Shown here in pieces: positions 19,938-50,937 of a stretch of DNA of 50,937 nt (position 1 is its first letter; each line of letters begins with the position of its first letter). Source of the DNA: an uncultured delta proteobacterium (GTDB lineage Bacteria > Desulfobacterota > Desulfobulbia > Desulfobulbales > Desulfocapsaceae); NCBI GenBank assembly GCA_903875445.1, contig CAIQWD010000040.1, positions 1-50,937 of the forward strand. Reading direction: 5' to 3'. The notes beneath the pieces are model-generated. The model was not told the DNA's origin. It saw only the letters and a program-made list of their open reading frames with translations, and made no database searches. The translations under genes were made by a program, and so were the position numbers.

Positions 19938-21209
19938 ATGAATAAAAATGAAAGCGGCAATGGCCTGCGTCCGGTGTTGCCGGAGCTGTTGGCACCGGCC
20001 GGGACCTATGAGAAACTGGTGACAGCCGTGCACTACGGTGCCGATGCGGTCTATCTTGGCGGCAAACAGTTCGGTCTTAGGGAAAAGGCCGGCAACTTCA
20101 CCGAGGAAGGGATGCGGGCGGGGCTGCAATACGCCCACGCGCACGGTGCCAAGGTGTATGTGACGGTCAATATCTTTGCCCACAACCGGGATCTCGAAGG
20201 TCTTGATCAGTATCTGCTCGGCCTCGGCAGCATGGGTGTCGATGGTCTGATTATCTCCGATCCGGGGATTCTCATGATGGCCCGCAAGATCGTTCCGGAC
20301 GTGCCGATCCATCTCTCTACCCAGGCCAACGTTACCAATTATGCGGCCGCCTCCTTCTGGCTTAGCCAGGGGGTTGTTCGGCTGAACCTGGCAAGGGAAC
20401 TGTCTCTTGTCGAAATCTGCCAGATCCGGGGGCAAACGGCCGGCGAGCTGGAAGTTTTCGTGCACGGCGCCCTGTGTATTTCCTATTCGGGGCGGTGCAT
20501 GCTCTCCAACTATATGACCGGCCGTGACGCCAATCGCGGCCACTGCGCCCATCCCTGCCGCTTCAGCTACGCCCTCGTCGAAGAAAAACGGCCCGGCGAA
20601 TATTTTCCTGTCGAGGAGGACGAACGCGGCACCTATATTTTTAATTCCAAGGATCTCTGTCTTCTGGAAATGTTGCCGCAGCTGGTTGCCATCGGAGTCG
20701 ACTCCCTGAAGATCGAAGGACGGATGAAATCGATATTCTATGTGGGTGGGGTGGTGCGGGTATACAGAGCCGCCCTTGATTATCTGTACAGCCTGCCGGT
20801 GGAAGTGTGGGAAAATCCGGCGGCAATTCGTCTGCCGGACTCGTTCATGGAAGAGATTCGCCGCACCGGCACACGCGGGGTAACCGAAAACTTCATTTCC
20901 GAGCGTCCGGGCAGCTCGGAAATGCTCTATCTGTCCTCCCGGGCGACGCAAAGCTATGAACCGGTGGCAGTCATTCTACAGCCTGGCAGCACCCCTTTAG
21001 TTGAATTGCGCAACCAGGTCATGGTCGGCGAACAGATAGAGTATATGCATCGTGGCATTGAGGTGCAGCCGCTGAAAATCACCGGCATGCAGGATGAGGA
21101 AGGCAACTCCCTGGAAAAGGCCAATCCGGGGAATCGGATACTCATCTTAACTGTGCCGGAACTGAAACCGGGTGAGGTAAACGGTATTCTCAGACGTAAG
21201 AAAGTTTGA
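19938..21209 (+). CDS. trhP: U32-family protein, TrhP/YegQ type (tRNA hydroxylation)
   Basis: The protein starts PELLAPAGTYEKLVTAVHYG, contains YADAVYLGG-like GADAVYLGGKQFGLRE and the U32 core HGALCISYSGRCMLSNYMTG, then NRGHCAHPCRF, giving the four conserved Cys that bind an Fe-S cluster. DSLKIEGRMKS follows. TrhP uses prephenate to hydroxylate U34 of tRNA; U32 members were long labelled peptidases. Start choice is uncertain: 19938 keeps the usual short N-terminus, while 19860 adds 26 residues. Its neighbours MnmA and MtaB also modify tRNA anticodon loops. Confidence 0.88.
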   Translation: MNKNESGNGLRPVLPELLAPAGTYEKLVTAVHYGADAVYLGGKQFGLREKAGNFTEEGMRAGLQYAHAHGAKVYVTVNIFAHNRDLEGLDQYLLGLGSMGVDGLIISDPGILMMARKIVPDVPIHLSTQANVTNYAAASFWLSQGVVRLNLARELSLVEICQIRGQTAGELEVFVHGALCISYSGRCMLSNYMTGRDANRGHCAHPCRFSYALVEEKRPGEYFPVEEDERGTYIFNSKDLCLLEMLPQLVAIGVDSLKIEGRMKSIFYVGGVVRVYRAALDYLYSLPVEVWENPAAIRLPDSFMEEIRRTGTRGVTENFISERPGSSEMLYLSSRATQSYEPVAVILQPGSTPLVELRNQVMVGEQIEYMHRGIEVQPLKITGMQDEEGNSLEKANPGNRILILTVPELKPGEVNGILRRKKV

Positions 21210-38896: not shown

Positions 38897-40520
<1,624 letters not shown>

Positions 40521-40531
<11 letters not shown>

Positions 40532-41897
40532 GGTATCCCCAGCATACTTGCCCCTTTTTGAATGTTCGTCCGATGGGAATATTTCATATGGCATCGTTCA
40601 GCCTGGGCCGCACTTTGAACAAGGGGTGCCAATTATCCGCGTTAACAATGTCAATAATGGAAACCTAGACATCTCGTCTCCAATTAAAGTTCACCCTGAC
40701 ATTGAAGAAAAACATCGTAGAACACGATTAGCAGGAGGTGAAATCTTACTGACCTTAGTCGGTTCTACCGGACAGACAGTAATAGCAGGTCCAGAACTCG
40801 CAGGTTGGAATGTGGCACGAGCTATTGCTGTGATAAGGCCGTCCTCAGAAATCAGTGCAACTTGGATTAAAATCTGCCTGCAATCAGACGAAGTCCAGCA
40901 CTTCCTAGACACTAGGGCGAATACTACCGTCCAAAAAACTCTAAACCTAAAAGATGTTCGAAACATTCCAATCCTCAACTCTCCGAAAGAAGATAGACGA
41001 TTCATTGAGGGCTGCTGGAATTCAATAAATGATAAGATTGAATTGAATCGGCGGATGAATGCGACGCTGGAAGGGATGGCGCAGGCGCTCTTCAAAAGCT
41101 GGTTTGTGGATTTTGACCCGGTGATCGACAATGCCCTCGCCGCTGGCAATCCGATCCCCGAGGAACTCACCGACCGCGCCGAAATCCGCCGCCAAGCCCT
41201 CGCCGATGGCACCTCCAATCGCGAAGCCGCCAAGCAATTTCCCGCTGCCTTTCAATTCACCGAATCCATGGGCTGGATTCCTGAGGGATGGGCGGCGGCC
41301 ACGTTAGGAGACTACCTGGAAATTAAACGCGGAGGCTCCCCAAGGCCTATCCACGACTTTATTAGTCCAGCAGGTTTCCCTTGGGTTAAAATTGCGGATG
41401 CGACTGCTTCTACCTCTCGCTTCTTATTTGCGACCAAAGAGTTTATCAAACCAGAGGGTTTAAAGAAAACCGTTCTAATGAAGAAAGGATCACTGATACT
41501 CTCTAATAGCGCAACACCAGGCTTGCCGATTTTTCTAGAACTAGAAGCATGCATTCATGACGGTTGGTTACATTTTCCGGCAAAGAGACATTTCGGTGAT
41601 TTGTATCTTTACCAACTTTTCTTGGTTATACGAGAAGAGTTGGTGGCGCAAGGAAACGGTAGCGTTTTCACAAATTTAAAAACTGACATTTTACGCGCCC
41701 AGCGAATTGCTGCCCCGCCATCGTCCGTGCTCGATTTTTTCGAAGGTTGGATGGAGCCAAACTTCGAAAAAATTCTAACTCTGAATGTTCAAACCAGATC
41801 GCTGTCTAATCTCCGCGACACCCTTCTCCCCAAACTCATCTCCGGAGAACTCCACATCCTCGAGGCCGAAAAACTCGCAGAGGAAGCGCTGGTATGA
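40521..41897 (+). CDS. hsdS: Type I restriction-modification specificity subunit HsdS
   Basis: The 458-residue protein has two target-recognition domains: TRD1 at about residues 20-160 (IIRVNNVNNGNLDI, EILLTLVGSTGQTVIAG, NLKDVRNIPILNSP) and TRD2 at about 255-420 (WAAATLGDYLEIKRGGSPRP, FPWVKIADATASTSRF, TNLKTDILRAQRIAAP). They are joined by conserved helices with MAQALFKSWFVDFDPV and closed by LRDTLLPKLISGELHI. Two TRDs predict a bipartite DNA target. It overlaps hsdM by 11 bases. The A+T-rich TRDs against a G+C-rich frame suggest TRD exchange. Confidence 0.93.
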
Positions 41898-42565
41898 AAG
41901 AGAGCGCGGCAATGCTTGCGGCAACGAAGCGGGCGGGGACGCCCGCGCTCCTAGGGTGGCGTTCGCGAGGGTATTTGCCGCATTTCGATGTGAGTGGACT
42001 CTATCAAGCCATCACCTATCGTTTGGGTGATTCCTTACCCGGGAGCGCGGGCGTCCCGCCCGCTTCACCATCCCAAAGCGTTGCCGAAAAAGCAGAGCGG
42101 CGCAACCACATAGAACGGGAGCTCAATAAGGGATACGGTTCGTGCATTTTGCGCGATAAGGAAATAGCCAAAATCATTGTGGATGCATGGAAGTATTTTG
42201 ATGGCAAGCGTTATGGTCTGGTGGCCTATGTGGTGATGCCCAATCATGTGCATGTGTTGATCAAAACGTACGAGGGTTTTCCTTTATCGCAGGTGATTCA
42301 TTCGTGGAAGTCTTTTACTGCGCATGAGATTAACAAGTTTTTGAAAATATGCGGGCGGGACGCCCGCGCTCCCAATCGTCCAATTGGTGGAGAGGACGGG
42401 TGCGCTTCGGTGTGGCAAAATGAATACTTTGATCGTTTTATCCGTGATGAGAACCATTTCGCTCAAGCCATTGCTTACATTCATGAAAACCCTGTCAAAG
42501 CCGGCTTATGCGGTCACGCAAGTGAGTGGCCATGGTCCAGTGTAAATGAGGAGTGTCATGTCTAA
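41894..42565 (+). CDS. REP-associated tyrosine transposase (RAYT, Y1 HUH family)
   Basis: The 223-residue protein has the RAYT order: LPHFDVSGLYQAITYRLGDS, GYGSCILRDKEIAKIIVDAW, the HUH motif VVMPNHVHVLIKT, LSQVIHSWKSFTAHEIN, and VWQNEYFDRFIRDENHFAQA with the catalytic Tyr, then YIHENPVKAGLCG. It nicks REP hairpins as single-stranded DNA. The frame overlaps hsdS by four bases and hsdR by eight, so it is embedded in the R-M operon. Three REP units lie inside the gene and are translated (GTPALLGWRS, GSAGVPPA, CGRDARAPN). Confidence 0.93.
   Translation: MKESAAMLAATKRAGTPALLGWRSRGYLPHFDVSGLYQAITYRLGDSLPGSAGVPPASPSQSVAEKAERRNHIERELNKGYGSCILRDKEIAKIIVDAWKYFDGKRYGLVAYVVMPNHVHVLIKTYEGFPLSQVIHSWKSFTAHEINKFLKICGRDARAPNRPIGGEDGCASVWQNEYFDRFIRDENHFAQAIAYIHENPVKAGLCGHASEWPWSSVNEECHV
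41929..41952 (-). repeat. REP unit in the 5' part of the RAYT gene
   Basis: Reverse-orientation REP (GCGGGCGGGGACGCCCGCGC plus TCCT), read in frame as AGTPAL. Confidence 0.88.
42040..42063 (+). repeat. REP unit within the RAYT gene
   Basis: Forward-orientation REP identical to the hsdM unit at 40231-40254; encodes GSAGVPPA. With the unit at 41929 it forms an inverted pair 87 bases apart. Confidence 0.9.
42351..42373 (-). repeat. REP unit in the 3' part of the RAYT gene
   Basis: Reverse-orientation REP (GCGGGCGGGACGCCCGCGCT plus CCC) between the HUH motif and the catalytic Tyr; encodes CGRDARAPN. Confidence 0.9.
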
Positions 42566-45500
42566 GACCTTCACCGAAGCCCAACTCGAAGCAGCAATAC
42601 TAGAACTCCTCGGCGAGGCGGGTTACCCCCATGTTCTCGGTGAAACCATTGACCGTCAGCCGCAGGAGGTGTTGATCAAGGCCGACCTGCGGGCATTCTT
42701 GGCCAAGCAGTATGCGATAGACGGGATCACTCCAGCAGAAATCGAGTCGATAATCCGCCAGCTGGAAGCCTATTCGGCGGCGGATCTCTACGAGAGCAAT
42801 AAGGCAATCATGAAGCTGGTCTCGGACGGCTTTCTGCTGAAGCGGGAAGACCGCGACCGGAAAGACCTCTATGTACAGCTGATCGATTATTCGGACCTGG
42901 CCGCGTATCGACTACCGCAGGCGGGCGAGGTGCCGTGGATTGTAGCAGAGAAAGCGGCGGTTTACCGAACCGACGGCAATATCTTTAAACTGGTGAACCA
43001 GCTGGAGGTCATCGGCTACGAGAAGCGGATACCGGATGGGATTCTCTATATCAACGGCCTGCCTCTGGTGGTCTTTGAATTTAAGAGCGCGATCCGTGAG
43101 GAGGCGACGATCCACGACGCCTTTGTCCAACTGACCCTGCGCTACAAGCGCGACATCCCCGAGCTCTTTAAATACAATGGGTTTTGCGTGATCAGCGACG
43201 GGGTGAATAATAAGGCGGGTTCGTTCTTCGCGCCCTATGAATTCTTCTACGCCTGGCGCAAGACCGACGGCGGCGACCTGATCGAAAAGGACGGGATCGA
43301 CTCGCTCTATTCGATGATCAAGGGGCTGTTTCAGCCGACCCGCCTCTGCGATGTGCTCCGCAATTTCGTCTATCTGCCGGACACCTCGCGGCGGGAGGAG
43401 AAAATCCTCTGCCGCTATCCGCAATACTACGCGGCAACCAAGCTGTATCGCAACATCTTGCTGCATATGCGACCCGCAGGCGACGGCAGGGGCGGCACCT
43501 ACTTTGGTGCGACCGGTTGCGGCAAGAGCTTTACCATGCTGTTCCTGGCGCGGCTGTTGATGAAGAGCGTGGCGCTGTCGAGCCCGACCATAATCTTGAT
43601 TACCGACCGCACCGATCTGGATGATCAGCTGTCGGGCCTCTTTACCGGTGGCAAGGGCTTTATCGGCGATGAGTCGGTGATCAGTGTGGAGAGCCGCACG
43701 CAGCTACGCGATCTGCTGAAGGGGCGTAACAGCGGCGGGGTTTTTCTCACCACGATTCATAAGTTTACCGAGGACACGGAGCTGCTGACCGAGCGCAACA
43801 ATGTGATCTGCATCTCGGATGAGGCGCACCGCAGCCAGGTGAACCTGGACCAGAAGGTGAAAATCACGGCAGAGGGGGTAACGCGAACCTACGGCTTTGC
43901 CAAGTATCTGCATGACTCGCTGCCGAACGCGACCTATGTAGGCTTTACCGGCACGCCGATCGATGCGACGCTGGATGTCTTCGGCCCGGTGGTTGATGCC
44001 TACACCATGACCGAATCGGTGGCCGACGAGATCACGGTGCGCATCGTCTACGAAGGGCGGGCGGCCAAGGTGCTGCTCGACAACAGCAAGCTTGCCGAGA
44101 TTGAAAACTACTACGCTGAGTGTGCCGATGACGGGGCCACTGACTACGCCATTGATGCGAGCAAACGCGCTAACCTGCAGATGAACGCCATTCTCGGCGA
44201 CCCTGACCGGTTGAAGGCCTTGGCTTCGGACTTCGTCGCCCATTATGAGGCACGCGTCGCAGAAGGCGCCACGGTTGCCGGCAAGGCGATGTTCGTCAGC
44301 AGCAACCGGACCATCGCCTACAATTTCTACAGGGAAGCGATTGCTCTGCGTCCCGAATGGGCGGAAATAAAGGTCTGTGCCGACGGGGAGGAGCTGACGG
44401 AACAGGAAAAGAAACAGATCATGCCCATGGAACGCATCAAACTGGTGATGACCCGTGGCCAGGATGATGAAAAAGCTTTGTACGATATGCTGGGGAGCAA
44501 AGAATACCGAAAAGAATTGGATCGGCAGTTCAAAACCGCCAAATCGAATTTTAAAATCGCCATCGTGGTGGATATGTGGCTCACCGGCTTTGACGTGCCC
44601 TTTCTCGACAGCATGTATATCGACAAACCGGTCAAACGGCATAACCTGATCCAGACCATTTCCCGGGTGAACCGCAAGTATCAGCAGAAAGAAAAAGGCT
44701 TGATCATCGATTATATCGGCATCAAGAAGCAGATGAACCTGGCTCTGGCCCATTACTCCAAGGCCGACACCGCCAACTTTGAGGAAATCAGCCAATCCAT
44801 TGTGGTGGTCAAGGACCATCTGGACCTGATGCGGGCGATCTTCCACAGGTTTGATGCCACCCCGTATTTCTCCGGGCAGTCCATCCAGCAACTGCACTGC
44901 CTCAACATGGCCGCGGAGTATGTGCAGATTACCGAGGAGTTCGAGAAGCGCTTCATGTTTCTGGCCAAACGCATAAAAGCCGCCTATGACATCTGCGTCG
45001 GCTGCGATGAATTTACCCAGGACGAGCGGGACCATGTCCATTTTTATCTGGCGGTCCGCTCCATAGTCTTCAAGCTCACCAGGGGTGATGCCCCGGATCT
45101 TGCGCAAATGAACGCCAAGGTGCAAAAGATGATTGCCGAGGCCCTGCAGAGTGATGGAGTGGAGGAAATCTTCAAGATGGGGCAAGGGGATACCTCTGAG
45201 GTGGATATCTTCGATCCGAACTACATGGCGAAGATCGAAAAGATCAAGCTGCCGAACACCAGAATCAAGCTGCTGCAGCAGCTACTGGCCAAAGTGATTG
45301 AGACGTTCAAGAAGGTCAATAAAATGAAGGGCGTTGACTTCTCCAAACAGTTCAAGGCCCTGGTGGATAAATACAATGACCGGAGTGAGCAGGACGTCCT
45401 CAGGAGCGAGGTGCTGGAAGAATTCACCGATGAGATTATCGACCTGTACCACGCCATAAAAAAGGAGAGGGAATCCTTTGCCGAGTTGGGCATCGATTTT

Positions 45501-45791
45501 GAAGAAAAGGCTTTCTACGACATCCTCAAAGCCCTCACCATCAAGTACGATTTTGTCTACCCCGAGGAGAAGCTCCTCGATCTTGCAAAAAAAGTGAAAG
45601 TCATCGTCGACGACAAGGCCAGATACACCGACTGGAGCCAGCGCAGCGACATCAAGGCCGAGCTGAAGGTGGACCTTATTATTTTACTGGCCGAGAATGA
45701 CTATCCGCCGGTAGACAGGGATGAGGTGTACAAGGAGATTTTTGAACAGGCGGAGAACTTTAAGAAACACCGAAGTGTAATGAAGGGGTAA
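42558..45791 (+). CDS. hsdR: Type I restriction endonuclease subunit HsdR
   Basis: The 1077-residue protein has an N-terminal nuclease domain (GILYINGLPLVVFEFKSAIR, with the E-x-K site) and a superfamily 2 helicase/translocase: Walker A GATGCGKSFTMLFLARLL, DEAH box ISDEAHRSQ, VGFTGTPIDATLDVFG, and motif VI TISRVNRKYQQKEKGLIIDY. The C-terminal region (KKVKVIVDDKARYTDWSQRS) binds the methylase core. ATG 42558 has GAGGAGTGTC upstream. It cuts unmethylated DNA after ATP-driven translocation. Confidence 0.96.
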   Translation: MSKTFTEAQLEAAILELLGEAGYPHVLGETIDRQPQEVLIKADLRAFLAKQYAIDGITPAEIESIIRQLEAYSAADLYESNKAIMKLVSDGFLLKREDRDRKDLYVQLIDYSDLAAYRLPQAGEVPWIVAEKAAVYRTDGNIFKLVNQLEVIGYEKRIPDGILYINGLPLVVFEFKSAIREEATIHDAFVQLTLRYKRDIPELFKYNGFCVISDGVNNKAGSFFAPYEFFYAWRKTDGGDLIEKDGIDSLYSMIKGLFQPTRLCDVLRNFVYLPDTSRREEKILCRYPQYYAATKLYRNILLHMRPAGDGRGGTYFGATGCGKSFTMLFLARLLMKSVALSSPTIILITDRTDLDDQLSGLFTGGKGFIGDESVISVESRTQLRDLLKGRNSGGVFLTTIHKFTEDTELLTERNNVICISDEAHRSQVNLDQKVKITAEGVTRTYGFAKYLHDSLPNATYVGFTGTPIDATLDVFGPVVDAYTMTESVADEITVRIVYEGRAAKVLLDNSKLAEIENYYAECADDGATDYAIDASKRANLQMNAILGDPDRLKALASDFVAHYEARVAEGATVAGKAMFVSSNRTIAYNFYREAIALRPEWAEIKVCADGEELTEQEKKQIMPMERIKLVMTRGQDDEKALYDMLGSKEYRKELDRQFKTAKSNFKIAIVVDMWLTGFDVPFLDSMYIDKPVKRHNLIQTISRVNRKYQQKEKGLIIDYIGIKKQMNLALAHYSKADTANFEEISQSIVVVKDHLDLMRAIFHRFDATPYFSGQSIQQLHCLNMAAEYVQITEEFEKRFMFLAKRIKAAYDICVGCDEFTQDERDHVHFYLAVRSIVFKLTRGDAPDLAQMNAKVQKMIAEALQSDGVEEIFKMGQGDTSEVDIFDPNYMAKIEKIKLPNTRIKLLQQLLAKVIETFKKVNKMKGVDFSKQFKALVDKYNDRSEQDVLRSEVLEEFTDEIIDLYHAIKKERESFAELGIDFEEKAFYDILKALTIKYDFVYPEEKLLDLAKKVKVIVDDKARYTDWSQRSDIKAELKVDLIILLAENDYPPVDRDEVYKEIFEQAENFKKHRSVMKG

Positions 45792-45958
45792 CATATCAGT
45801 GCACCAGGAGCCTTGGCCACTGGAATTATTTACCTACCCAGCCTGTGAACTGTCTCGATTTCTCGTGATTGATAACTCGGTACGATTCCTGGATGAATTG
45901 GTGGTATACAAAAATAAATGTTGTGATTCAGTCTCAAACTCGATGAATGGAGGAAAGA

Positions 45959-46456
45959 ATGCTGTCGGATGAGATGCAGGAAAAGGCAATGGATCTCTTC
46001 AAACAAGGGATGCACTGCAGTCAGGTAATAGCCATGGTTGGCCTGGAAAAACTGGGCATCAATGATCCCTCGGTAATCAAGGCTCTCGGCGCATTTGGCG
46101 GCGGTATCGCTGGAACTGGCAACATTTGCGGTACTCTGGTGGGCGCCGTCAGTGTAATAGGTAGCCTTTACAGCCGGGGAAGCGTCGAGGAAAAAGAAAA
46201 CCCCCGAATGTGGGGCGCTACCAAGATAGTCCTGAAAAATTTTGAAGCATTGGCTATGCCGCACGGCGGCATCAACTGTTGCCAGATTGCCCGAGTTGAC
46301 TGGATGGATCGAGATCAGGTTAAGAATTTTTATAGAAATCCCGAGAGCCGCCGTCAGCATTGCATCACCATCGTCGGAGAAACCGCCAAAGCTTTGTGTG
46401 AATTGCTGGATCAGGAATTGAAAATCATGGCCGATAAAAGCGAAGGCAAGAATTAA
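45959..46456 (+). CDS. C_GCAxxG_C_C family putative redox protein
   Basis: The 165-residue protein has the family pattern: HCSQVIAMVGLEKLGI (first Cys), GAFGGGIAGTGNICGTLVGA (here GAFGGGIAGTG replaces the GCAxxG core, with a Cys following), HGGINCCQIA, and RRQHCITIVGETAKALCELL. Family knowledge: small cytoplasmic proteins with conserved Cys, thought to be redox active; exact function unknown. TGGAGGAAAGA precedes the ATG. It follows hsdR by 167 bases. Confidence 0.82.
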   Translation: MLSDEMQEKAMDLFKQGMHCSQVIAMVGLEKLGINDPSVIKALGAFGGGIAGTGNICGTLVGAVSVIGSLYSRGSVEEKENPRMWGATKIVLKNFEALAMPHGGINCCQIARVDWMDRDQVKNFYRNPESRRQHCITIVGETAKALCELLDQELKIMADKSEGKN

Positions 46457-46645: not shown

Positions 46646-47044
46646 ATGGAACAACCAATATTGCAAATCATCGGTATGTTGCATGGCGATATCATCAGTC
46701 GTGAGGACGCTCCAAAAAATTATGATGAGTCACATCGAATTGGAACCCTGGAGATCTATCCTGAATTTCAGGATGGGCTTGACGGGATAGTTGTCGGACA
46801 GACCATTGTCGTGCTTTTTTGGCTGCACAAGTCAACACGGGATGTTCTCAAGGTTTATCCGAGAGGAGATAAATCAAAGGGATTGCGAGGTGTTTTTGCC
46901 ACTCGCAGCCCGGTAAGGCCAAACCCCATTGCGATTTCCGAACTGCAAGTTTTGGCAATCAACGGCAATCAGCTGGAGGTGTCGGGGTTGGACATTCTGG
47001 ATGGTACGCCTATCATTGATATCAAGAAAAAGATTGGCCGTTGA
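46646..47044 (+). CDS. trmO: TrmO-like tRNA m6t6A37 methyltransferase
   Basis: The 132-residue single-domain protein has IGTLEIYPEFQDGLDGI, VVLFWLHKSTRDVLKVYPRG and the hallmark GVFATRSPVRPNPIAISELQ, then SGLDILDGTPIIDIKK. TrmO N6-methylates t6A37 of tRNA-Thr using SAM. The family name in older databases is TsaA/YaeB. Only the core domain is present; the longer C-terminal extension of E. coli TrmO is absent. With mtaB in the same window, two enzymes act on t6A37. Confidence 0.9.
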   Translation: MEQPILQIIGMLHGDIISREDAPKNYDESHRIGTLEIYPEFQDGLDGIVVGQTIVVLFWLHKSTRDVLKVYPRGDKSKGLRGVFATRSPVRPNPIAISELQVLAINGNQLEVSGLDILDGTPIIDIKKKIGR

Positions 47045-47776
47045 GCAACAGATCCCGTTATGGCAGCTCAGTAGCGTTTCGGAAATAAAAGGCATCATGT
47101 CTAACTAATAATGACAGTCAATATTCAGTTTTTCCCCTGAGGCTGATTATTCTCCACGTTTTTTCGGCACATCTCCTTGTGGAAAGGTAGTGTTAGTCAA
47201 TTTTTGGATAGAGTAGTCCATCCACCCTGTATAGAAGGGGCTGTTTTTTCCTCGATATTCTTCTCGCCAAGCACCCATCCGGCCAGCCATCGCTCGGATA
47301 TCATCCTCTTTTCTGTTGCTCCCCCTGGACCGGTACCCTGACCGTATGGGCGGACCGCAGCATGCCCAGGAAAGTGCCGTTTCTCCTCCGAAGAAATGGA
47401 GCTGATCATTGATGAGTGTTGCGACCGGCTTGCAAGGGTCAATGATGAGGTGAGTCGGCTTCTTCCGCCGGGGTTTCCTGAGGAAACGGCGGTATCGGTA
47501 TTTTCTGGGATGCAGGGAGTGCGGGAACGCCTTGGGTGATTGGGGAAGAAGGAAAGAGATATGTCCCCAGCAGGTTTCCTGGAATGGAACAAGAAAAAGT
47601 GTACGTCTTTGCTATCTGTTAGCGACTCGCGACACTATTGAGTGACACTCATATGGCACGCTTTAGTGTCGCGTCTCAGGATGAGGATTTGCCCATGCGC
47701 ATTGGCGATCAGCGCCCGGACAGCCGGGATGGGGTGGAGTTGCGGCATTTCAGTGGTCGGTTGCATGACTTTCTCC
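47045..47776. other. 730-bp stretch without an intact gene
   Basis: The only recognisable item is a fragment resembling the end of HipA (separate entry). Other open frames here are short or shadows. It separates trmO from the NrtR-like gene. Confidence 0.5.
47378..47539 (+). pseudogene. C-terminal remnant of a HipA-like kinase toxin
   Basis: In one plus frame: FSSEEMELIIDECCDRLARV, NDEVSRLLPPGFPEETAV, FSGMQGVRERLG, then TGA. This matches the end of HipA proteins (helix, L-P-x-x-F-P, I/VFxGM, xRL). No kinase core or start remains upstream. Confidence 0.5.
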
Positions 47777-48442
47777 TCAGATCTTGCTTATCGTCCGGTC
47801 GAAGAGGACGAGATTTTTGGCCGGGCGAATGCGGTAGAGCTGCGCCGGGCGGTGCACCCCCGTCCGCGCCTTGGACGTGGCATCGAGGAAATCGAGCTCG
47901 CCGATTTTTCGCCGAAAGGCGCTTTTGTCCAGCTTGCAGCCCAGGACCTTTTCGTAGGTTTGCTGCAGGTCGGAAAGGGTGAATAGCTCGGGCAGGAGAT
48001 AACACGGCACCGCCGAATAGGTCGATTTATTGCGAAGCCGCTGTACGGCGCTGTCGATAATACGGTTGTGATCAAAGGGCAGCTGCGGCAGATCGTCGAC
48101 CGGATGCAGCAGAAAACGGTCGGACCCCTGGGACATCAGGGTCTCAATATCGAGTAGGGCATAGTAGCTAATGCTCACCGACCAGCCTCGCGGATCGCGG
48201 GTTGCGCTGGCGAAGGTATAGAGCTGTTCAAGATATGGCGAAACGAGGGCAGTTTTATCTTTCAGCACCCTTTTGGCGGCGGCGAGGCTGTCGAGATCCT
48301 CTTCGGTGTGGACATAGCCGCCGGGCAGGGCCGGAAAACCTTTGTAGGGATCCCATGTCCTTTTCTGTAAAACTACCTGTAAAGCATTGTCCTTCAAGGT
48401 CAGAAGAACAACATCGACGGTCAGGATAATGTTTTGTTCCAT
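47777..48442 (-). CDS. NrtR-like transcription regulator (Nudix plus winged helix)
   Basis: The 221-residue protein has an N-terminal Nudix-fold domain (ILTVDVVLLTLKDNALQVVL, GFPALPGGYVHTEEDLDSLA). The Nudix box lacks the catalytic R-E-x-x-E-E: AAAKRVLKDKTAL stands where it should be. A C-terminal winged-helix part follows (LFTLSDLQQTYEKVLGCKLD, AFRRKIGELDFLDAT, LYRIRPAKN). This is the layout of NrtR, which senses ADP-ribose and represses NAD-metabolism genes. It faces the SPFH/NAD-kinase-like pair across a palindrome-bearing intergenic region. Start: ATG 48442, with GAGG upstream. Confidence 0.85.
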   Translation of the reverse strand: MEQNIILTVDVVLLTLKDNALQVVLQKRTWDPYKGFPALPGGYVHTEEDLDSLAAAKRVLKDKTALVSPYLEQLYTFASATRDPRGWSVSISYYALLDIETLMSQGSDRFLLHPVDDLPQLPFDHNRIIDSAVQRLRNKSTYSAVPCYLLPELFTLSDLQQTYEKVLGCKLDKSAFRRKIGELDFLDATSKARTGVHRPAQLYRIRPAKNLVLFDRTISKI

Positions 48443-48503
48443 CTCTTTTTGCCTCACATATATACTTTGTACAAATTAACGTGGAAATCTAAAAATAGAG
48501 ATA

Positions 48504-48522
48504 ACACGTTAATAAAACGTGT
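48504..48522. promoter_or_regulatory. Palindromic operator between the NrtR-like and SPFH genes
   Basis: ACACGTT and AACGTGT form perfect 7-base arms around AATAA. The site lies 61 bases from the regulator's ATG and 157 bases from the SPFH ATG, in the divergent promoter region. A second small palindrome (TTTGTACAAA) is near 48467. Binding by the NrtR-like protein is inferred. Confidence 0.6.
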
Positions 48523-48678
48523 CAACTGAATATTTGTAATTCACATAGTTGCATAATGAATATAAGTGTTGTATCCTTTGTTATAAGAAGGGAAGAGCGA
48601 ACGGCAAGGAGTCGTAGGGAAGGTGTGACGCCGGGCCGGCCCGCTTGAGAAAAGCACATTCAACACAAGGAGGACACT

Positions 48679-49695
48679 ATGCTCGGATTCAAATTCGCCA
48701 AATTTCAACCAACCGATTATGTGCTGCAGTACAAAGGCGGGAAGCTGGTCCGCGAAGGCATCGGCCAGTCCTTTTTCTATTTTGCCCCGACCTCGTCCCT
48801 TGTGCGGGTGCCGGTGGCCAGCGTCGATGTTCCTTTCATCTTCCTGGAAGTGACCGCCGACTTCCAGGAGGTGACGGTGCAGGGACAGTTGACCTACCGC
48901 ATTGCCGATCCGGGAAAGGTGGCGCAGTTGATGGATTTCAGTATTGCCGAGGACGGCAAGAAATACGCCACCGACGACCCGAAGAGCCTGCCGCAGCGGT
49001 TGATCAACCATGCCCAGGTCCTGACCCGCGCTTCCCTGCAGGCCATGCCGCTGCGTCAGGCTTTGGGCAGTTCAAGCGATCTTGTCACCGGCATTCGGGA
49101 AGGGATGCGCCAGGCCGAGGCGATCACCTCCCTTGGTGTGGAGATTTTGGGCTTTTCCATCCTCGCTATCAAGCCGACACCGGAAACCTCGCGGGCCCTG
49201 GAGGCAGAGGCGCGGGAGCAGATCCTGAAAGAATCCGACGAGGCCATCTACGCCCGGCGCAATGCCGCAGTGGAGCAGGAGCGGGCGATAAAGGAAAATG
49301 AGCTGAACACCGAGATCGCCATCGAAAACAAAAAACGGCAGATCAAGGAAGCCCAGATGGAGGCGGAGAAGTCGGTGCAGCAAAAGAAAAGGGAGATTAA
49401 AGAAGCGGAGATGGCGACGCGCATCGCCCTGGAAGAAAAGAATAAGGAATTGGTCGAGTTGTCGGTACAAAACGAACGGCATCAGGCCGACAGCAAGGCC
49501 TACGGCATCTCGGCGACGCTTAAGGCCCTTGCCGCCACCGACCCGAAGGTGCTACAGTCGCTGACCAATGTCGGCATGGATCCGGGCCGCCTGCTGGCCC
49601 TGGCATTTAAGGAAATGGCTGAAAGTACCGGCAAGATCGGGCAGTTGAATATCTCCCCGGATCTCCTTCGGGAAATGATGGCTGAACGTAAATAG
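48679..49695 (+). CDS. SPFH/Band 7-domain protein without a membrane anchor
   Basis: The 338-residue protein starts FKFAKFQPTDYVLQYKGGKL with no signal or membrane helix. An SPFH domain covers about residues 10-190 (FFYFAPTSSLVRVPVASVDV, VQGQLTYRIADPGKVAQLMD, GVEILGFSILAIKPTPETSR). A charged coiled coil follows, about 190-275 (repeated QIKEAQMEAEKSVQQKKREI), and a C-terminal oligomerisation-like end (LGRLLALAFKEMAES-like DPGRLLALAFKEMAESTGKI). SPFH proteins form rings or scaffolds at membranes. ACAAGGAGGACACT precedes the ATG. The NAD-kinase-like gene follows by seven bases. Confidence 0.9.
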   Translation: MLGFKFAKFQPTDYVLQYKGGKLVREGIGQSFFYFAPTSSLVRVPVASVDVPFIFLEVTADFQEVTVQGQLTYRIADPGKVAQLMDFSIAEDGKKYATDDPKSLPQRLINHAQVLTRASLQAMPLRQALGSSSDLVTGIREGMRQAEAITSLGVEILGFSILAIKPTPETSRALEAEAREQILKESDEAIYARRNAAVEQERAIKENELNTEIAIENKKRQIKEAQMEAEKSVQQKKREIKEAEMATRIALEEKNKELVELSVQNERHQADSKAYGISATLKALAATDPKVLQSLTNVGMDPGRLLALAFKEMAESTGKIGQLNISPDLLREMMAERK

Positions 49696-49702
49696 GTGGC
49701 CT

Positions 49703-50638
49703 ATGTCTCCGCAAAGCGAAAACAAGATCATCCTCATTGTCCGCAAAACCCGTCTGGACGAACTGATTTTTCGGTACAATACCGAGGCCCAGGCGAAATT
49801 TTACATCGAGCATCTCGGCGCCGATTTTTCCGACTACAAACGGGAAGACGAACAGTATAAGGCGGCAGTGACAGAGACGCGGCAGCATCTCGAGGAGTTG
49901 GGGCGGGTCCAGACCGTCGACCGGACCTTTGTTCCCAACTTCATTTTCGGCGCAAGGGATACGGTGGTCGTGCTCGGCCAGGACGGACTGGTGGCCAATA
50001 CCCTGAAATACCTTAGCGAGCAACCGGTGGTTGGCGTCAATCCCGATCCGGCCCGCTGGGAGGGGGTGCTGTTACCCTTTGTGGTGCGGGATATCCCGAA
50101 GATTCTGCCCCAGGTCTTTAAGGAAAAACGGGCGATCTCCGAGGTGACTATGGCACGGGTCGAGTTGAATAATGGCCTCAGTCTGCATGCGGTGAATGAC
50201 CTCTTCATCGGTGCCCGTTCGCATATCTCGGCTCGGTATTTGATCAGGTCGGGGGCAAGGGAGGAGGAGCATTCCTCAAGCGGCATTATTGTCTCGACTG
50301 GTTTGGGTGCCACCGGCTGGTATAAAAGCCTGATGGCTGGGGCTCTGGCTATTGCCTCGGCTGTTGCCGGACGGGAGATTAAGGCAGCTCCCGCTGCCTT
50401 TCCGCGGGATGCCGAGTATCTGCAGTTTACCGTGCGCGAGCCCTTTCCCAGCACAACCTCCCAGGCAACGCTGGTAGTGGGGAGGGTAACGGCTAAAAAG
50501 CCGTTAAGCCTAGTGTCACACATGGCCGGTGCCGGAGTCATTTTTAGCGACGGAATCGAAAGCGACTATCTTGAGTTCAATTCCGGGGCACGGGCAACAA
50601 TTACTCCTGCGGCAAAGAAGGGGCGGTTGGTGGTTTGA
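49703..50638 (+). CDS. Divergent NAD-kinase-like protein
   Basis: The 311-residue protein fits the ATP-NAD kinase fold: DTVVVLGQDGLVANTLKYLS stands where NADK has GGDGT (here GQDGL), VVGVNPDPARWEGVLLPF follows, then SLHAVNDLFIGARSHISARY (the NE/D motif) and SSGIIVSTGLGATGWYKSLM (the GSTAYS-like glycine loop). It belongs to a subgroup apart from housekeeping NADK; the changed GGDG motif leaves substrate and activity open. It shares an operon with the SPFH gene, and an NrtR-like regulator stands opposite, which supports a link to pyridine nucleotides. Confidence 0.82.
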   Translation: MSPQSENKIILIVRKTRLDELIFRYNTEAQAKFYIEHLGADFSDYKREDEQYKAAVTETRQHLEELGRVQTVDRTFVPNFIFGARDTVVVLGQDGLVANTLKYLSEQPVVGVNPDPARWEGVLLPFVVRDIPKILPQVFKEKRAISEVTMARVELNNGLSLHAVNDLFIGARSHISARYLIRSGAREEEHSSSGIIVSTGLGATGWYKSLMAGALAIASAVAGREIKAAPAAFPRDAEYLQFTVREPFPSTTSQATLVVGRVTAKKPLSLVSHMAGAGVIFSDGIESDYLEFNSGARATITPAAKKGRLVV

Positions 50639-50785: not shown

Positions 50786-50803
50786 GTTTTTAAAGAAAGG
50801 AAA

Positions 50804-50917
<114 letters not shown>

Positions 50918-50937
50918 TAAAGCGGTTTGGTGAGGGG

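Follow-up and report, generated by a model that had tools for sequence, protein, structure and literature searches.

An SPFH protein paired with an NADK2-like kinase-fold protein, in part of its loci beside an NrtR-like regulator: a putative NAD- or ADP-ribose-linked module in bacteria

The DNA analyzed here, referred to as the window, is the 50,937-nucleotide stretch of contig CAIQWD010000040.1 from an uncultured delta proteobacterium of the Desulfocapsaceae. Near its end lies a module of three genes, in which an NrtR-like regulator is encoded divergently from an SPFH/Band-7 scaffold protein and an NADK2-like kinase-fold protein (Table 1). The SPFH and kinase-like genes are on the same strand with a gap of 7 bp, while the 221-bp intergenic region between the regulator and SPFH genes is AT-rich, with 39% G+C compared to 51% in the window. 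Judged by the N-termini of homologues, the regulator more likely starts at the ATG at 48442 than at the GTG at 48457. A preliminary description of this DNA had proposed a regulator divergent from a pair of SPFH and NADK-fold genes, and family or fold matches confirmed all three genes.

Table 1. Genes and promoter features of the module in the window.
Feature	Position	Strand or region	Remarks
NrtR-like transcription regulator	47777-48457	-	degenerate Nudix domain and NrtR winged helix; likely start ATG 48442
SPFH/Band-7 scaffold protein	48679-49695	+	without clear transmembrane segment; conserved C-terminal KIGQLNISPDLL motif
NADK2-like kinase-fold protein	49703-50638	+	GQDGLVAN signature
Predicted NrtR-type operator ATAGTTGCATAATGAATATAA	48545-48565	shared promoter	position weight matrix from 16 other loci
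Interrupted inverted repeat ACACGTT-N5-AACGTGT	48504-48522		possible lineage-specific operator
Three AACGTG-type half-sites	48475-48483, 48505-48513, 48516-48522		

To survey the neighborhood, a profile of 13 relatives was used, which yielded at least 593 pattern stretches in the contig collection, 588 of them encoding a relative; the locus counts given below describe the best 80 of these at least 588, i.e., the most similar relatives. The SPFH gene was located on the same strand and at most 400 bp upstream of the kinase-like gene in 78 of the 80 loci, with a median gap of 4 bp. The two exceptions are L054, where the contig begins close to the kinase gene, and L100, which has a gap of 1232 bp. 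According to the record titles, the 80 loci span about ten phyla and include Bacillota, Verrucomicrobia/Lentisphaerae, several proteobacterial classes, Acidobacteria, Planctomycetota, Anaerolineales, Calditrichia, Hydrogenedentota and Brevinematales; plasmid records add Treponema, Streptomyces and Kitasatospora. An NrtR-like gene was present in 35 of the loci, either upstream on the same strand (18, some up to 3 kb away), divergent (11) or downstream (6), and 30 of these 35 genes had a normal length of 200 to 300 amino acids. Conservation of the neighborhood thus holds for the SPFH-kinase pair, and for the regulator in 35 loci and in three arrangements.

Among the closer relatives of the window, the module is rare. 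Only six of 97 genomes gave a match, its own included, with two strong (G070, G080) and two weak ones (G021, G093) among them. In a sample of the phylum, 13 of 297 genomes matched, seven of them strongly and again including its own, and an SPFH gene adjoined the kinase-like gene in all six other strong carriers, one of which (L118) also has an NrtR-like gene. This patchy spread points to horizontal transfer of the module. In a genome of the same genus (G007; C149; L004, L007), the kinase-like gene is represented by two pieces, both incomplete and diverged, which are perhaps decayed copies.

The SPFH gene product matched Band_7 with an E-value of 1.8e-14, and its structural model (pLDDT 85.1, pTM 0.54) shows an SPFH domain followed by a long helix (residues 168-286) and the conserved C-terminal motif. 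The nearest folds were those of stomatin, HflK/C, erlin, prohibitin and flotillin, with the major vault protein ranking lower. The protein shares the succession of SPFH domain and long helix with stomatin, QmcA, HflK/C, prohibitin and flotillin, but appears to differ from them in having no clear N-terminal membrane helix. Its highest 19-residue hydropathy is 1.67 at residue 146, within the SPFH domain, and a value of 1.6 was attained by 16 of 59 relatives. Since no clear membrane helix was seen, contact with the membrane is inferred. The available part of a survey of SPFH proteins in P. aeruginosa describes the SPFH-NfeD operon as a frequently seen pairing (PMC13086221), whereas the partner here is an NADK-like gene; that part contains no word beginning with NAD and no mention of Nudix.

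The kinase-like protein scored 14.7 bits against the Pfam family NAD_kinase (PF01513), which is below the cut-off of 25.5. Nevertheless, its model (pLDDT 91.3, pTM 0.87) matches the fold of NAD kinases, so that the NADK-fold protein with a GQDG motif described before was recovered. In an alignment of 61 rows, comprising the window protein and 60 of 76 candidates, the residues D94, N165, D166, W206, D283 and G284 were invariant (61/61), and the NAD-side motifs (N-D and T/S-x-W) were retained in the family. Position 93, the second glycine of GGDG, was Q in 54 rows, R in six and P in one. As GQDGLVAN was one of the search patterns, the GQDG count in the locus set is biased; in 13 sequences chosen without this pattern, position 93 was Q in 12 and R in one. 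The available text of PMC8553519 reports GGDG for all NAD kinases, assigns the role of catalytic base to its aspartate in canonical NADK and states that the NE/D motif and region II are required. Because the catalytic aspartate and the N-D motif are kept, catalysis by the kinase-like protein is plausible despite the altered motif.

The conserved change in GGDG, together with the near-constant pairing with a scaffold, would also fit a pseudokinase, in which binding of NAD(P)(H) or ADP-ribose would be signaled through an SPFH ring without catalysis. We consider this quite improbable, as the catalytic aspartate, the N-D motif and the distal DG are present in 61 of 61 rows, which would be unusual for a dead enzyme. 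An ordinary housekeeping NADK was rejected as the identity of the protein, because a separate GGDGT NADK is encoded elsewhere in the genome (L024:1281-2162); the other PF01513 match in the genome (C88) is presumably a phosphofructokinase. Since PF01513 matches above the cut-off were found in all 59 sampled genomes, the module looks like an addition to the ordinary NADK and not a substitute for it.

The nearest solved relative of the kinase-like protein is human mitochondrial NADK2, an NAD(H) kinase. This enzyme occupied ranks 1 to 7 of a Foldseek search with the kinase-like model (best E-value 3.3e-20, TMq 0.70-0.78), followed by canonical NADKs. On PDB chains, a profile of 19 module rows scored 74.9 bits for NADK2 and at best 29.1 for a canonical enzyme. 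Conversely, a profile of 19 canonical rows, made up of four of six earlier rows and 15 rows picked by motif from 29 further loci, gave 43.6 for NADK2 and 209 for human cytosolic NADK. Profiles of unequal size agreed, as 61 module rows gave 55.6 for NADK2 and the six canonical rows 26.4. In a tree of 41 rows, which is unrooted, contains the NADK2 and cytosolic rows as joined fragments on long branches and draws its canonical rows from one phylum plus one Pseudomonas, NADK2 and 19 module proteins were separated from all canonical rows with a support of 100/99. Forcing NADK2 to group with cytosolic NADK cost 31.9 log-likelihood units, with a borderline p value of 0.05 in the approximately unbiased test. 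Judging by profile, fold and the 41-row tree, the kinase-like family thus appears to be nearer to NADK2 of human mitochondria than to the canonical enzymes. With NADK2 (7r4j, 7n29) it shares the fold, the N-terminal region, the TRxE and DPxRxxGxL motifs and the tryptophan of region II, but it is bacterial and paired with SPFH, has GQDG instead of GGDGT and is 19-20% identical in Foldseek. With canonical bacterial NAD kinases (PF01513) it has the superfamily motifs and the fold in common, but misses their Pfam cut-off and is set apart from them in the tree.

The regulator matched the NrtR winged helix (NrtR_WHD, PF21906) with an E-value of 3.3e-23 and 82 bits (cut-off 27) and NUDIX with 24.1 bits (cut-off 21.1). 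Its closest PDB match (1.6e-39) was 3gz5, an entry named MutT/nudix protein, which we take to be SoNrtR. NrtR is a family of regulators that control NAD genes, and their Nudix-like sensor domain is often degenerate. Likewise, the Nudix box of the window regulator reads KRVLKDKT in place of the expected REUXEE, and the degenerate-Nudix, winged-helix architecture proposed earlier was borne out. The box is lost here and retained in some relatives; several NrtR-like relatives (L041, L043, L059 and others) have an apparently intact one and, to judge from this motif, some of them may be active hydrolases besides regulators. The score for the NCBIfam equivalog NF050029 was 187.7, compared to a cut-off of 400; by its sequence, the protein is therefore assigned to the NrtR family but not to this equivalog. 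It is the sole NrtR_WHD match within its own genome. A Nudix-like domain joined to an NrtR winged helix, a palindromic operator and an NAD-gene context are shared with known NrtR regulators (3gz5; MsNrtR, PMC6800001), whereas the target here is the SPFH/kinase pair.

A 21-bp palindromic motif was learnt by expectation maximization from 16 intergenic or upstream regions of other loci, with the near-duplicates L011, L020, L068, L070 and L074 excluded from training. The resulting motif, TTAGTnnn-N5-nnnACTAA, is present in many training regions as two copies 22 bp apart, and differs from the mycobacterial and streptococcal NrtR sites quoted in the available part of PMC6800001. Its top score among 50,917 window positions, 9.1, fell in the promoter shared by the regulator and SPFH genes, and the runner-up (8.4) was at position 20997. 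For a uniform draw, the chance that the best of all these positions falls within the 201 promoter positions is 0.4%; as the promoter is AT-rich, it was shuffled as an additional control, and the score was attained in 12 of 2000 shuffles. In a held-out set of 28 loci with both nrtR and SPFH genes, which played no part in motif training, the highest-scoring site over the entire locus lay at most 300 bp upstream of one of these genes in 15 loci, compared with 1.5 expected. The five near-duplicates were all hits, and without them the count was 10 of 23.

Among loci with no NrtR gene in reach, 11 of 44 had their best site in the SPFH promoter, and all 11 belong to Paenibacillus or related genera (Saccharibacillus, Cohnella), a pattern that suggests control of the SPFH promoter in trans. 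Good operators (e.g., TTAATGTCATATTGACATTAT) precede SPFH in the Paenibacillus promoters of L038, L030, L044, L057, L060 and L066, where nrtR was not in reach and a regulator is likely encoded elsewhere in the genome. The motif also precedes a nicotinate phosphoribosyltransferase gene in L059 and a Nudix gene in L090, and in L043 it lies between nrtR and the divergent gene for the nicotinamide mononucleotide transporter PnuC.

The preliminary description had pointed instead to a perfect palindrome at 48504-48522, which proved to be an interrupted inverted repeat with 7-bp arms and a 5-bp gap. When the region was shuffled 1000 times, an arm of at least 7 bp turned up in 10.5% of the shuffles with gaps of 0-9 bp allowed, and in 5.8% with gaps of 0-5 bp. 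Three AACGTG half-sites were found in none of 1000 shuffles, the half-site having been picked after the repeat was seen. The genome contains one exact copy and two other places that match with two mismatches, and no exact copy was detected in any of the 151 loci (of 154 in all) that do not cover this promoter. In view of this absence and its modest significance, the repeat was rejected as a conserved operator; a lineage-specific operator is possible. The 21-bp NrtR-type site is the better-supported predicted operator of the two. On the minus strand, positions 48502-48524 comprise the inverted repeat and T-rich sequence and resemble a terminator hairpin upstream of the regulator gene.

We also analyzed the genes surrounding the module in other genomes. 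Operon partners were defined as same-strand genes of at least 90 amino acids in runs that extend from a module gene with no gap above 130 bp, which gave 112 proteins from 50 of 89 loci. The 25 most frequent of their 80 Pfam families included ADP_ribosyl_GH (10), isochorismatase (7), response regulator (6), Macro (3) and, with two each, NAPRTase, KptA/Tpt1, microbial PARG, NUDIX and PTP-NADK. No NAD or ADP-ribose family was among the top 25 of 115 families in a control set of 112 of the 589 other neighbors from the 80 loci, a set that does contain one nicotinate phosphoribosyltransferase (L056) and one gene clustering with an NadR-like AAA_28 protein (L043). Neighbors of part of the loci were scanned singly, which identified PncB and a nicotinamidase (L101), NAD synthase (L049), nicotinate phosphoribosyltransferase (L056, L059), PnuC (L041, L043), macrodomains (L062, L041, L048, L089), glycohydrolases (L031, L034, L041, L043, L059, L062, L085, L089), KptA (L062, L085), PARG (L085), isochorismatase-family proteins (L050, L059) and Nudix proteins (L043, L090). 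NAD-salvage or ADP-ribose genes were thereby found near the module in 14 of the 80 loci, or 15 if L054 is counted by BLAST cluster, some of these genes being on the opposite strand or at distances of as much as a few kb. No glycohydrolase lies beside the module of the window, and the two matches in its genome are on other contigs. The pyridine-nucleotide-responsive scaffold/kinase system suggested in the preliminary description is accordingly borne out in part, through the scaffold-kinase pairing and through this context in 15 of the 80 loci.

Glycohydrolase, macro, PARG, KptA and Nudix neighbors release or handle ADP-ribose, and their presence in part of the loci would suit a kinase-fold protein that phosphorylates ADP-ribose or another product of NAD breakdown or damage; such a kinase would serve in recycling or detoxification and be scaffolded by SPFH. 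The replacement of the second glycine by Q or R is consistent with this, as is the ordinary NADK available in the genome and, by PF01513, in the sampled genomes. Yet the nearest solved relative, NADK2, is an NAD(H) kinase and the NAD-side motifs are kept, and we regard such an activity as rather unlikely.

A role in defense, which had been considered in the preliminary description, found no support. None of the three module proteins was matched by PADLOC. Matches among the 112 operon partners comprised mad2 (4 members), Csa3 and two single candidates, and those among 112 other neighbors mad3 (5), mad8 (2), AriA (2), one PDC-S70 and one TIR match; they are scattered, and no recurring system was recognized, there being no background rate for comparison. 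Relatives of the module in phages or viral contigs were not found at the sensitivity used. Host systems centred on an ADP-ribosylglycohydrolase have been predicted (PMC9503650, section 3.8), and their Nudix transcription factor, glycohydrolase, rhodanese-type phosphatase and macro protein recur as partners in module loci. The module could thus be a branch of these systems serving anti-phage defense or counteracting ADP-ribosylation, and restriction-modification genes do lie nearby. However, PMC9503650 mentions NrtR but no NAD kinase, NADK, prohibitin, stomatin, band-7 or SPFH, and a glycohydrolase was identified in a minority of the 80 loci; with the PADLOC and viral searches, this makes such a function very unlikely in our view.

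The reading that we prefer, with confidence and doubt about evenly balanced, is that the module consists of an ADP-ribose- or NAD-responsive repressor controlling an SPFH-scaffolded NADK2-like enzyme. The NrtR-type repressor would sense ADP-ribose or a related product of NAD turnover, sit on the shared promoter and leave it while NAD is consumed, whereupon the SPFH oligomer and the enzyme would be co-expressed. Because the pairing is nearly universal, the SPFH ring, probably on the membrane face, may hold or regulate the enzyme. The latter would phosphorylate either NAD(H) or an ADP-ribosyl nucleotide similar to it and thereby rebalance NAD and NADP or trap a breakdown product, while salvage genes would refill the pool. 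This model builds on what can be read from the sequences, namely the linkage, the regulator class, the operator motif of the relatives, the NAD/ADP-ribose neighbors in part of the loci, the kinase fold in which the catalytic aspartate and the N-D motif are kept, and the kinship with NADK2; from there, we infer the ligand, substrate, activity, protein contact and membrane location.

Several observations weigh against this model. An NrtR-like gene was not in reach in 45 of the 80 loci or in five of the six other strong carriers in the phylum sample, and five of the 35 genes found are weak, long or split (L035, L069, L072, L073, L080). The operator was missed in 13 of the 28 held-out loci, and that of the window is weaker than most, its right half falling below typical sites. 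NAD/ADP-ribose neighbors were identified in just 15 of 80 loci, eight of which are from Verrucomicrobia or Lentisphaerae (the remaining seven are from Collimonas, Undibacterium, Clostridium, further proteobacteria and an unnamed bacterium), and no such gene clusters were seen in Paenibacillus loci. Finally, GQDG departs from the GGDG that the available text of PMC8553519 reports for all NAD kinases, and therefore donor or acceptor may differ or activity may be lost.

Each part of the module comes from a known superfamily. Their combination, the operator motif and this subfamily of kinase-like proteins are apparently undescribed. No description of them was found in the open-access literature, a scope outside which the 2008 comparative-genomics survey of NrtR lies; in PMC7159879, SPFH occurs among the references alone, and neither NAD kinase nor NrtR is mentioned. 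We tentatively propose, at somewhat less than even confidence, that the module represents an undescribed system widespread in bacteria, with a repressor that senses ADP-ribose and controls a stomatin-like ring; this ring would house an enzyme that belongs to a bacterial family sister to mitochondrial NADK2, carries an altered phosphate-site motif and acts on NAD or an ADP-ribosyl nucleotide. If this is true, the mitochondrial clade of NAD kinases, which the available part of PMC6675116 treats as sister to the cytosolic clade and as uncertain in provenance, would acquire a source or a sister group among bacteria. Should the tree hold, it would bear on the origin of mitochondrial NADK2, which the phylogeny in that part leaves open. 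In addition, the module would tie an SPFH protein to a fixed partner enzyme and to a metabolic context, and NAD homeostasis would gain an uncharacterized branch in many phyla.

In the window, the module lies 3' of a type I restriction-modification locus, as described before, with HsdM, specificity subunit and HsdR genes identified at 38897-45791. A Y1/IS200-like transposase-family gene, which we assume to be RAYT-like, lies between the specificity and restriction genes (41894-42565). Genes for a C_GCAxxG_C_C redox protein (45947-46456) and the tRNA t6A methyltransferase TrmO (46646-47044) separate this locus from the module, and a 5S rRNA gene (50802-50918, minus strand) is found near the module end. 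A proposed hipA remnant was not recovered, as the single stretch tried (47342-47536, 65 amino acids) had no Pfam match at an E-value of 0.01.

In records of Moraxella osloensis, Proteus mirabilis and Acinetobacter lwoffii (the L015, L019, L020, L154 group), the module directly adjoins tetracycline genes, either tet(H) or tet(J). In the A. lwoffii record, where the neighbor is tet(H), the SPFH gene (L020:4952-5998) is broken into two open pieces and the kinase-like gene is intact. Further partial matches occur on plasmids (H71, H72, H74-H80), and the Psychrobacter plasmid pKLH80 retains, next to tetR(H)-tet(H), a 3' piece of the kinase-like gene, which may be a footprint of the mobilization of the tet segment.

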